A DNA stretch of 64,000 bases from Pseudarthrobacter phenanthrenivorans Sphe3 (GTDB taxonomy: Bacteria; Actinomycetota; Actinomycetes; Actinomycetales; Micrococcaceae): the NCBI RefSeq assembly GCF_000189535.1, contig NC_015145.1, positions 1,488,001-1,552,000 on the forward strand. Reading direction: 5' to 3'. A program made the position numbers and the translations under genes. Numbering within the stretch: position 1 is the stretch's first letter; every line of letters begins with the position of its first letter. Below, piece after piece: positions 55,013-57,644 of the stretch. The notes beneath the pieces are model-generated. The model had not been told where the DNA came from. It was given only the letters and a program-made list of their open reading frames with translations, and ran no database searches.

Positions 55013-55607
55013 CCTTCAGGATCCGGAATGACTTGGACGTGGCTTCCCGGCTGACGGCGAAGGATTCGTCCAGTTCGGCTGCCAGCCAGCGCTGCAGCGA
55101 GTCCGATCCGAGGTTTTTCTGCACCACAAGCCAGGCCGTACCGCCGGGCGCGAGGCGTGGCAGCCAAAGCTTGAGCAGTGAATGCAGCTCGTCCTTGCCG
55201 ATCCGGATGGGCGGATTGGACCAGATGGTGTCGAAGCGGATGTCGGGATCCACCGCTTCGGGAGTGCTGGCCTTGACGTTGGTCAGCCCGAGGGCTGCCG
55301 CGTTCTCGTTGGTCAGCGTGATGCACCGCTCGTTGACGTCCACCGCGTAGACCTGGGCCGAGGGAGCGCGCAGGGCCATGGTCAGGGCAATGGGACCCCA
55401 GCCGCAACCGATGTCCAGGAGGTTTCCCTGCGGGGCGGGCGCGGGCACCTCCGCGAGCAGGATTGCCGTGCCTTTATCGATTCCGTCCGGGCTGAAGATG
55501 CCGCTGGAAGTCTGCAGCTTGCGCATTTCTCCGGCCAGTTCGACCGTCAATGGCTTCCGTGTGAAAGGGCCGGCGGGTGTTGCGCTGAAATAATGTGCGG
55601 ACTCCAT
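54984..55607 (-). CDS. Class I SAM-dependent methyltransferase (RsmC/RlmG-like)
   Basis: A 207-aa methyltransferase related to the catalytic half of 16S rRNA G1207 methyltransferase RsmC. SAM motif I is NLLDIGCGWGPIALTMALRA (about residues 63-82), the acidic loop is VYAVDVNERC, and the catalytic motif IV is IWSNPPIRIGKDELH (NPPI, about 131-145). It starts with the family's HYFSATPAGPFTRKPL segment. ATG 55607 has TACTCT ending 8 nt upstream. The frame upstream runs into the hflX leader region and is not credible. Confidence 0.88.
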   Translation of the reverse strand: MESAHYFSATPAGPFTRKPLTVELAGEMRKLQTSSGIFSPDGIDKGTAILLAEVPAPAPQGNLLDIGCGWGPIALTMALRAPSAQVYAVDVNERCITLTNENAAALGLTNVKASTPEAVDPDIRFDTIWSNPPIRIGKDELHSLLKLWLPRLAPGGTAWLVVQKNLGSDSLQRWLAAELDESFAVSREATSKSFRILKVRKASRLPQ

Positions 55608-55666
55608 AATTGGCCAGAGTAGTTCCCCTTGCAGCGTAAAGGGAAACCGCCGCTTTGGTCCTCTGC

Positions 55667-55970
55667 TACGCTGGAGGGCATGTTCCTGATCTTCGAGTAA
55701 CCGGCACGGGCCCGTCCCGTCCGAAGCCTGTCCTCCAGCGACAGCCATGTCCCAAACCCCGGCGACGCAGGTTTCCCAACCTTCCGCCGAGTGCACCGGA
55801 CCAGACGCTTCCTTGTTTGGCCGGTCGCCGGACAACACTCGAAAGTCAGTCCGATGCCTGGCTTCCCGCCGTTTCTCCGGCCGCTTTCACATCCGCCACG
55901 TACTTGAGTCGTGGCATGCCCGCCGTGGCAGCCTTCGCGGGCGCCCGGCCCAACAAGCCAGGAGGCTTGG
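55667..55970 (+). promoter_or_regulatory. hflX leader with mini-ORF and RBS-sequestering hairpin
   Basis: TACGCT (55667-55672) ends 7 nt before the mini-ORF ATG 55680. CGCTGGAGG (55669-55677) and CCTCCAGCG (55732-55740) are a perfect 9-bp inverted repeat around the mini-ORF. Further on, GCCACG/CGTGGC (55895-55915) forms a hairpin. CAAGCC-AGGA-GGCTTG (55954-55969) folds the AGGAGG Shine-Dalgarno (55960-55965) into a stem-loop just before ATG 55971. This fits a translation-responsive leader. The rest of the 453-bp gap 55608-56060 holds no convincing gene. Confidence 0.5.
55680..55700 (+). CDS. Putative hflX leader peptide, MFLIFE
   Basis: A six-codon ORF, MFLIFE followed by TAA, located 7 nt after a -10-like TACGCT and so at or next to the expected 5' end of the hflX transcript. 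Its strongly hydrophobic composition resembles short regulatory or resistance-type peptides that interact with drug-bound ribosomes in other bacteria. Its translation and role are inferred; there is no homology evidence. Confidence 0.45.
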   Translation: MFLIFE

Positions 55971-56060
55971 ATGACCGCAGGCCCTCAGCCCAGCGCGAAT
56001 ACTTCCCCAATCACCAGCAATCGGCACTATTCTGGAACTGCCGAACCTTCAAAGGAGACC

Positions 56061-57644
56061 ATGACCAGCCAGCCCAACACCGGATCTGATCCAGCCGCCC
56101 AGGACATGAGTCCTGAGGAAATCCAGGCTGTTATCGACCGGATTCTCTCCAAGGACGTACCGGCCAAGGGCCTTACCACGCCAGCCGGCGGTGAGGACGG
56201 AAGGGACGGGAAGGCAGTCCTTGGCAAGGCGCAGGCGATCTCCCGCCTCGACGAAGAACATACAACGTACGACGGCGACCAGCAGGATCTCGAGGAACGC
56301 CGCGCCCTGCGCCGCACGGCTGGCCTGTCCACTGAACTCGAGGACGTCACCGAAGTCGAGTACCGGCAGCTGCGACTTGAGCGCGTTGTCCTGGCCGGCC
56401 TCTGGTCAGAGGGAACCCTCGCTGACGCCGAGAACTCGCTGCGGGAACTCGCAGCCCTCGCCGAAACGGCCGGCTCCGAAGTCCTTGACGGGCTGGTCCA
56501 GCGGCGCGACAAGCCGGATCCCGGAACGTTCCTCGGCTCCGGAAAAGCCCAGGAGCTCAAGGACATCGTGATGTCCACAGGTGCAGACACAGTGGTGGTT
56601 GACGCCGAACTGGCACCCTCGCAGCGCCGTGGCCTGGAGGACATCGTCAAGGTCAAGGTCATTGACCGGACCGCCCTGATCCTGGACATCTTCGCCCAGC
56701 ACGCCAAGAGCCGCGAGGGCAAGGCCCAGGTGGAGCTGGCACAGCTTGAGTACCTCCTGCCGCGCCTCCGCGGCTGGGGTGAATCGATGTCCCGCCAGGC
56801 CGGTGGCCAGGTGGGCAGCGCAGCTGCAGGCATGGGTTCGCGTGGTCCCGGTGAAACAAAGATCGAGCTGGACCGCCGCCGGATCCGTACCCGCATGGCC
56901 AAGCTGCGGCGGGAGATCGCCGCGATGAAGCCAGCCCGCGAGACCAAGCGCGCCAACCGCCGTCGTAATGAAGTGCCCTCGGTGGCCATCGCCGGGTACA
57001 CCAACGCCGGCAAGTCCTCACTGCTGAACCGCCTCACGGACGCCGGGGTGCTGGTGGAGAACGCCCTGTTCGCCACCCTGGACCCGACCGTCCGTAAAGC
57101 CGAAACCGCCGACGGCCTGGGCTACACGCTGGCCGATACCGTGGGCTTCGTGCGGTCCCTGCCCACGCAGCTGGTGGAAGCCTTCCGGTCCACCCTGGAG
57201 GAAGTGGCGGACTCGGACCTGATCCTGCACGTGGTGGACGCCTCCCACCCCGATCCGGAAGGGCAGATCGCTGCGGTCCGCAAGGTCTTCAGCGAGGTTG
57301 ACGCCCGCAAGGTCCCCGAAATTATCGTCCTGAACAAGGCAGACGCCGCCGACCCCTTTGTGGTGGAGCGGCTCAAGCAGCGCGAACCGCGCCACGTTGT
57401 GGTGTCCGCACGGACGGGTGAAGGTATCCCGGAACTGCTCAGGGCCATCAGCGAGGCGATTCCGCGGCCGTCGGTGAAGCTTGAGCTGCTGATCCCCTAC
57501 GACCGCGGGGACCTGGTCAGCAAGCTCCACGAATCCGACGCGGAGATTATCAGCGTTGACCACGATGAAGCCGGCACCCGGGCAGTAGTCAAAGTCCGGG
57601 AAGGCCTGGCGGCTGAACTGGAACCCTTCGCCAGCAATGACTGA
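56061..57644 (+). CDS. hflX: GTPase HflX
   Basis: Ribosome-associated GTPase (527 aa) that splits stalled or antibiotic-bound 70S ribosomes. The N-terminal HflX domain shows LVQRRDKPDPGTFLGSGKAQ and LAPSQRRGLEDIVKVKVIDR. A coiled coil follows after SRGPGETKIELDRRRIRTRM. The G domain has G1 IAGYTNAGKSSLLNRL (about residues 311-326), DTVGFVRSLP and LNKAD. ATG 56061 has AAAGGAG 3 nt upstream. ATG 55971 is in frame, adds 30 residues and has AGGAGG in a hairpin, so two isoforms are possible. It overlaps dinG by 8 nt. Confidence 0.95.
   Translation: MTSQPNTGSDPAAQDMSPEEIQAVIDRILSKDVPAKGLTTPAGGEDGRDGKAVLGKAQAISRLDEEHTTYDGDQQDLEERRALRRTAGLSTELEDVTEVEYRQLRLERVVLAGLWSEGTLADAENSLRELAALAETAGSEVLDGLVQRRDKPDPGTFLGSGKAQELKDIVMSTGADTVVVDAELAPSQRRGLEDIVKVKVIDRTALILDIFAQHAKSREGKAQVELAQLEYLLPRLRGWGESMSRQAGGQVGSAAAGMGSRGPGETKIELDRRRIRTRMAKLRREIAAMKPARETKRANRRRNEVPSVAIAGYTNAGKSSLLNRLTDAGVLVENALFATLDPTVRKAETADGLGYTLADTVGFVRSLPTQLVEAFRSTLEEVADSDLILHVVDASHPDPEGQIAAVRKVFSEVDARKVPEIIVLNKADAADPFVVERLKQREPRHVVVSARTGEGIPELLRAISEAIPRPSVKLELLIPYDRGDLVSKLHESDAEIISVDHDEAGTRAVVKVREGLAAELEPFASND

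Follow-up and report, generated by a model that had tools for sequence, protein, structure and literature searches.

A conserved, probably leaderless six-codon ORF ahead of hflX in Arthrobacter and its relatives, a candidate macrolide-sensing switch

The intergenic stretch ahead of hflX, the gene for a ribosome-splitting GTPase, holds an ORF of six codons (mini-ORF) close behind a −10-like element, and this raises the question of whether so short an ORF can sense ribosome inhibition and set HflX levels in response. A sequence-only reading of the window, that is, of the whole 64,000-nt stretch of Pseudarthrobacter phenanthrenivorans Sphe3 DNA analysed here, had proposed that it does, with a short hydrophobic peptide that reports the inhibition and switches hflX-dinG expression, and had noted an enclosing inverted repeat. 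The stretch is flanked on one side by a divergent methyltransferase gene on the minus strand (start at 55607; families match only below cut-off) and on the other by hflX (ATG 56061), and the gene 3′ of hflX encodes a DinG/YoaA-type helicase for which the best models score below their cut-offs. The coordinates of all features are collected in Table 1.

Table 1. Features of the hflX leader region in window coordinates
Feature	Positions	Strand	Basis
Extended −10 TGC-TACGCT, distal (leader) promoter	55664..55672	+	TGN-TANNNT in 146/146 genus loci; column conservation
Six-codon mini-ORF MFLIFE-TAA, ATGTTCCTGATCTTCGAGTAA, probably leaderless	55680..55700	+	Pattern search, 146 loci read, substitution pattern
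P1 5′ strand, codon 3 to first base of stop (CUGAU, UUCGAGU)	55686..55698	+	Fold, pair counts, long-range pairing probabilities
P2 hairpin just past the stop codon	55702..55723	+	Fold; similar folds in relatives
P3 hairpin with conserved internal loop (GCG-AYGC-AGG ... CCT-TC-CGC)	55760..55789	+	Fold; alignment columns
P4 hairpin, variable sequence	55791..55828	+	Fold; comparable stems in relatives
P1 3′ strand, "anti-ORF" (ACUCGAA, GUCAG), pairs with mini-ORF	55837..55849	+	Fold, comparison
Alternative hairpin (AAGUCAG with CUGGCUU) using the anti-ORF, exclusive with P1	55843..55864	+	Fold of the window locus (L002)
AGGAGG + ATG 55971, where translation of hflX probably begins on the long transcript	55960..55973	+	In frame, 30 codons upstream of ATG 56061
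TATTCT, −10-like element of the proximal hflX promoter	56028..56033	+	Conserved ahead of hflX
hflX (short start), ribosome-splitting GTPase	56061..57644	+	NCBIfam TIGR03156 GTPase HflX, 439 bits (cut-off 217)

The hflX upstream regions were read in 146 of 150 genus genomes (30 from a first scan and 116 later), and the close loci recruited with the window HflX carry Arthrobacter, Pseudarthrobacter and Paenarthrobacter names. One record titled Vibrio cholerae strain 35D (L054) has an Arthrobacter-like hflX region with 80% HflX identity; this assembly is probably mislabelled or contaminated. Every one of the 146 loci holds exactly one ORF of three to eight codons behind TGN-TANNNT-N5-9-ATG, and its length is six codons in 145 of them. 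The encoded peptide is MFLIFE in 111 loci, MFLNFK in 10, MILNFK in 6 and MILISK in 4, with other peptides elsewhere, while the stop is TAG in 114, TAA in 31 and TGA in a single locus (L212, genome G050), where a frameshift leaves the four-codon form MFLI-TGA, a natural variant that bears on the six-codon requirement. TGA ends 19 of 39 long ORFs, roughly chosen, of the window itself. Of the 150 genus genomes, 110 contain a single match each to a degenerate M-F-L-[IV]-F-E-stop pattern, against 0 matches for the reversed control; in 109 of the 110 the match coincides with the mini-ORF and lies 272-508 nt ahead of the hflX ATG, and in the remaining genome (G047) hflX matched on another contig. The arrangement first noticed in the window, TACGCT followed after 7 nt by MFLIFE and a stop, is present there and has a homologous mini-ORF in all 146 loci; codon conservation in relatives, which the sequence-only reading had named as its own check, was examined and held, with MFLIFE itself in 111 of 146. 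As judged by sequence comparison, the mini-ORF is real and strongly conserved, beyond chance.

The −10 element and the ATG are separated by 7 nt in 145 of the 146 loci and by 6 nt in the other, the base directly ahead of the ATG is C in 145 of 145 loci with the 7-nt spacing, and no conserved −35 was seen for the distal leader promoter among the genus loci. The fixed spacing, combined with the lack of a conserved Shine-Dalgarno sequence, suggests that the mini-ORF is leaderless, and the 7-nt spacing and the invariant C at −1 place the predicted transcription start at the A of the ATG (55680). The mini-ORF is thus probably the very start of the hflX mRNA made from the distal promoter. If transcription does start at this A, the left arm of the inverted repeat is absent from the RNA, and the repeat and its GGAGG probably lie outside the transcript. 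The 9-bp repeat is present in the window where the sequence-only reading had placed it (CGCTGGAGG, 55669-55677; CCTCCAGCG, 55732-55740), but it is not conserved, being perfect in 4 of 146 loci, with GGAGG ahead of the ATG in 13 of 146. As lineage-specific elements, the repeat and GGAGG were rejected as the switch; it is another pairing, that of mini-ORF codons with 55837-55849, which has been retained.

The same geometry lends itself to the main rival explanation, a sensor of translation status in which 70S loading at the 5′ AUG would open this retained pairing (helix P1, Table 1) and raise hflX, the peptide mattering little, so that any inhibitor trapping ribosomes in the first codons (lincosamides, pleuromutilins) would act. 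We regard such a sensor as possible but rather unlikely. The leaderless geometry is the most invariant feature of the locus, with N7 in 145 of 146 loci and C at −1 in all of those; leaderless mRNA binds 70S ribosomes, according to the passages cited here (PMC9031893), and intact 70S is the HflX substrate. The way in which the codons themselves have changed, considered next, bears on how much the peptide matters.

Base changes were counted by the Fitch method on a FastTree tree of flanking sequence (~330 aligned bases) that is resolved only roughly. The six bases ahead of the invariant C changed 17-37 times each on this tree, compared with 0 changes at the C and the ATG. Within the ORF, changes cluster at synonymous positions, with 19 at the first base of codon 3 (CTG/TTG) and 15 at the third base of codon 5 against only 1 to 3 at each of the other positions of these two codons, and the last base of the stop codon underwent 13 TAA/TAG interchanges and none to TGA. 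Silent changes outnumber replacing ones by 17 to 3 at codon 3 and by 13 to 4 at codon 5, whereas at codons 2, 4 and 6 replacing changes prevail (10, 8 and 7, compared with 1, 4 and 2 silent ones) and are mostly F/I, I/N and E/K/Q; because these three codons change amino acid, the peptide is not frozen. These counts firmly support a coding pattern of change, and they bear out the claim of a conserved leader mini-ORF upstream of hflX that had been made from the single sequence. Retention of L3 and F5 in the genus while synonymous positions vary argues against a translation-status sensor to which the peptide is nearly immaterial. It would also be conceivable that the mini-ORF is a by-product of the promoter with no regulatory role, since an ATG 7 nt past a −10 element is common in actinobacteria, yet its occurrence in 146 of 146 loci, the synonymous-site pattern and the pairing of the ORF with its anti-ORF make this very improbable. 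An amino-acid attenuator sensing Phe, Leu or Ile tRNA charging is equally hard to credit: codons for these residues do predominate, but there are six codons without a single-codon run, the TTG and CTG Leu codons interchange freely and the downstream gene is not biosynthetic.

Most of the loci shown have a segment some 120-190 nt downstream of the mini-ORF that is complementary to it. Within the window, CUGAU (55686-55690) pairs with GUCAG (55845-55849) and UUCGAGU (55692-55698) with ACUCGAA (55837-55843), whether the minimum-energy or the centroid fold is taken; the resulting P1 closes a multibranched RNA that encloses P2, P3 and P4, and the leader folds 3.6 sd below shuffles (z = -3.6). In 88 representatives of the 146 loci, codons 3-6 find a partner 90 nt or more downstream with a mean probability of 0.69, which falls to 0.21 on shuffling of the downstream sequence, and P1-type pairing probability exceeds 0.5 in 70 of the 88 against 0 of 88 control means (six shuffles each), leaving 18 leaders without P1 above that level. 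Leaders also fit their own ORFs better than swapped ones (18.0 vs 16.1, sd 0.2; 0 of 2000 permutations as high, kinship uncorrected). The two partners change jointly from lineage to lineage: UUCGAGU/ACUCGAA accompanies MFLIFE, UCCAAGU/ACUUGGA accompanies MILISK and MFLNSK, and ACUUCAAGU/ACUUGGAGU is found in the MFLNFK lineage, while in a Paenarthrobacter-like lineage the pairing register is shifted, around GAUC.

In an alignment of 27 sequences, all 162 cells of the six P1 core pairs hold a standard pair. GC is exchanged for AU at the first base of codon 6 in 11 sequences, and UG for AU at the second base of codon 4 in 10; over the whole structure 90.5% of cells are paired, compared with 30-54% after sliding. 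The covariation score, 0.241, is above the 0.172 of shuffles, but neither the count of pairs with changes in both partners (matched by 162 of 500 shuffles) nor that of pair types (393 of 500) is, and these two of the five measures are the ones that the tool rates least prone to relatedness. Joint change of the P1 partners is visible but rests on few evolutionary events. Taken with the pairing probabilities, the comparison provides good support for a mini-ORF that pairs with the downstream anti-ORF to form a putatively switchable RNA.

Covariance models from Rfam gave no match at E<=1 on window positions 55400-56200, and on seven relatives they gave none on the element and one viral-family match (E 0.95) off it; membership in a known Rfam riboswitch or leader family was rejected for want of any match on the element in the window and these relatives. 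The internal loop of P3 (window 55760-55789 and relatives) is a candidate protein or ligand site, and the 27 aligned sequences all agree throughout the loop and its flanks, apart from a single C/T column. This invariance favours a further alternative, in which sensing, or the binding of a protein, falls to the RNA through the P3 loop (AYGC x UC) and the ORF is secondary. We consider it improbable in view of the coding pattern inside the mini-ORF, the lack of an Rfam match in the window and on the element in seven relatives, and the outcome of applying the RNA model to 56 other-genus loci, where nothing convincing was found (best E 0.55) though some of these loci have mini-ORFs.

The preferred reading, in which a drug-held ribosome on the mini-ORF flips this pairing, calls for a second conformation and an output step. 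When the first 36 nt were blocked, mimicking a ribosome halted at the stop, the anti-ORF tended to pair downstream in many MFLIFE loci. Its GAA pairs within 33 nt with a mean probability of 0.81 against 0.41 in shuffles, above 0.5 in 48 of 50 distinct MFL[IV]FE-type loci, and the alternative hairpin has a mean z of -2.3 over these 50 loci and -0.7 over 45 mixed representatives; modelled in this way, support for the hairpin appears limited to the MFLIFE lineage. A simple scan of window positions 55500-56200 found 0 terminator-like sites, and attenuation by an intrinsic terminator between the mini-ORF and hflX, of the MsrDL or rli80 type, was rejected on this basis. Release of a sequestered hflX start, as in translational attenuation, is likewise unsupported, the predicted access of the start being unchanged in 76 loci on blocking nt 1-36 (0.36 to 0.37). 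Because the leader is C-rich and G-poor (C 0.34-0.42 and G 0.23-0.35 in 20-nt bins covering +20 to +260 relative to the mini-ORF), our guess for the output step is Rho-dependent termination.

The peptide resembles a known arrest peptide, which gives substance to the earlier suggestion that a short hydrophobic peptide could serve as a macrolide sensor. In the passages cited here, MsrDL is described as a hexapeptide (MYLIFM) in the leader of streptococcal mefA/msrD that undergoes erythromycin-dependent termination arrest; L3A and I4A abolish induction and every other residue but Y2 contributes, F5 collides with the GGQ motif of release factors and together with displaced rRNA bases excludes these factors, and a UAG stop weakened MsrDL, UAA being preferred (PMC10314930). 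MFLIFE is identical to MYLIFM at M1, L3, I4 and F5 and has F for Y at position 2, a likeness expected by chance with P = 4e-5 for random GC-rich codons and 0.016 for hydrophobic peptides, both calculated post hoc. This match, too, stands against a translation-status sensor indifferent to the peptide. The likeness extends to a hexapeptide followed by a stop (six codons in 145 of 146 loci) and to a ribosome-protection gene downstream, and among the 145 six-codon ORFs Phe5 is found in 137 and Phe2 in 130. At the two residues essential in MsrDL, both present in the window, the genus is mixed: Leu3 is found in 142 of 145, but position 4 is Ile in 121 and Asn in 21, whereas MsrDL is intolerant of Ala there in the passages cited; the stop, UAA in both MsrDL and the window, is TAG in 114 of 145 genus ORFs and TAA in 31; and position 6, Met in MsrDL, is mostly E or K here. 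MsrDL also has its own RBS and an intrinsic terminator, in contrast to a probably leaderless ORF for which no terminator was found and whose downstream gene is hflX. No word beginning with "Actino" occurs in the main text of the MsrDL paper (PMC10314930), a literature search for MFLIFE or MFLIF returned unrelated matches only, and one for Arthrobacter with hflX had no title on hflX regulation among the matches listed.

On this analogy, the hflX transcript from the distal promoter would start with a leaderless six-codon ORF that, without drug, ribosomes would finish fast, so that the RNA would rest in the P1-closed state, from which most transcripts would stop early or be unproductive; blocked ribosomes would turn HflX up, and HflX would then split blocked ribosomes. 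That the hflX leader encodes a leaderless, MsrDL-like macrolide-arrest hexapeptide serving as the switch for HflX is, in our estimate, an evenly balanced proposition, and we put forward macrolide sensing of this kind, a well-motivated idea, as the best single explanation with a confidence that is again about even.

Three other systems share parts of this design. In the excerpts cited, rli80-hflXr of Listeria monocytogenes combines a 14-aa uORF bearing an RLR motif with an intrinsic terminator (PMC6310831). As there, a uORF and alternative RNA folds precede an HflX gene and the ORF region joins the fold; the present locus differs in having six codons and an anti-ORF, no RLR and no terminator found, and an RLR (or +X+) arrest motif is absent from the genus peptide list, with MKNK in one other genus. 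Mycobacterial leaderless polycysteine short ORFs (Canestrari et al. 2020) are proposed, in the passages cited, to attenuate the downstream gene (PMC9031893). These embody the same leaderless attenuator idea in an actinobacterium, but the mini-ORF has no Cys codons and its proposed signal is the drug-bound or idle ribosome. An AT-hook tail is a criterion for WhiB7, and neither of the two WhiB proteins found in the window genome has a WhiB7-type AT-hook tail. Mycobacterial hflX is macrolide- and lincosamide-inducible and WhiB7-linked, as far as the cited part of the source describes it (PMC12493154). The mycobacterial gene is raised by translation inhibitors; the same response is proposed here for a genome in which no WhiB7-like protein was found.

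The leader is probably not the only route to HflX. An in-frame upstream start with an SD-like sequence lies exactly 90 nt ahead of the hflX ATG in 129 of 146 loci and 87 nt ahead in 1, and is lacking in 16, and hflX likely has two translation starts, one on the long transcript and one giving a short form behind TATTCT. In the window, the upstream start would add a probable 30-codon N-terminal extension to HflX (MTAGPQPSANTS..., 55971-56060), for which reason gene callers may place the hflX start differently. ACTATTCT is located 34-37 nt ahead of the hflX ATG in 133 of 146 loci, and a CAGCCCAGCGCGAAT block (window 55986-56000) precedes it (56026) by a fixed 40 nt, counted between their first bases, in all 105 loci that contain the two; the arrangement is retained even in some loci whose reading frame is lost. 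From its conservation the CAGCCCAGCGCGAAT block (within 55985-56033) looks like a regulator site or a part of the proximal hflX promoter. This promoter probably also feeds hflX, and it may drive the gene independently, with the leader dispensable for basal hflX.

Outside the genus, 60 hflX upstream regions were covered, representing 27 genera of the same family, and 26 of them contain a short ORF 6-8 nt past TANNNT, the 26 coming from 12 genera of which one (g12) is doubtful; this looser motif is expected 0.096 times per 750-nt region in mono-nucleotide shuffles, or ~6 times in 60. The more distant named loci of the first scan held a mini-ORF in 9 of 63, and the 64th (L078) is a genus member with MFLIFE. 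The 19 printed loci without a mini-ORF match have, by eye, mostly a short intergenic region and the proximal promoter only. Many of the other-genus peptides are hydrophobic (MTLIFV, MTLFFV, MTFIFV, MTFL, MTYL, MLIFL, MFLFI, MRLFK, MFLFK, MFLLFA, MFLMYL, MLSFL), and MTLIFV, MFLLFA and MFLMYL also score well against MsrDL, whereas MTFFHS and MTFLPA do not; the hydrophilic MKK, MKNK, MANK and MTNK are unlike MsrDL. Recurrence of position and form while the peptide differs (MTFL, MLIFL, MRLFK, MKK, MANK) speaks for the translation-status sensor.

The RNA beyond the mini-ORF has a narrower distribution. Model R1 gave 14 matches at E<=0.1 in 197 family genomes, 9 of them in this genus (9 of 12 sampled); the 5 outside the genus had no hflX match in their loci, and R1 also missed 3 genus genomes. 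The full leader RNA therefore appears genus-restricted as far as this model reaches. Long-range pairing in other genera is at most suggestive, reaching p<0.05 in only 7 of 33 loci (Fisher combined 1e-5, the loci being related); suggestive examples come from a Glutamicibacter-like group, ATGACTCTG/CAGAGTCAT in L066 and ATGACTTTTC/GAAAAGTCAT in L279. A leaderless M-[FY]-[LF]-I-F-x-stop pattern was found in 3 of 394 class genomes, all three of them genus genomes and each at the hflX mini-ORF.

A wider proposal, tentative and one that we doubt more than we believe, is that a leaderless mini-ORF, loaded by 70S ribosomes and held by drug, flips the ORF-anti-ORF switch to give more HflX, as a homeostatic loop that replaces WhiB7 in Micrococcaceae and has been re-made genus by genus with different mini-peptides. 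If true, in actinobacteria seemingly without WhiB7 the 5′ end of the hflX mRNA would itself sense drugs that target the ribosome, by means of a very short ORF initiated with no Shine-Dalgarno sequence; the MsrDL arrest solution (an x-L-I-F-x hexapeptide) would be suggested for a chromosomal gene of actinobacteria living in soil; and the leader would offer a simple system for asking whether leaderless initiation reports 70S abundance.

Individual loci of other genera depart from the common form. In L277 (g27), 357 nt upstream of the hflX match, the ORF behind the TGATAGAGT promoter, again of leaderless type, is longer (MILTQRVYTRIRFVG) than the 4-7 codons that relatives have there. In L291 (g13; TAGAAT-N7-ATCACTTTT) and L283 (g17; TAGAGT-N7-ATCACTAAT), ATC replaces ATG at the place of the mini-ORF start, as either a lost start or a non-standard start codon.
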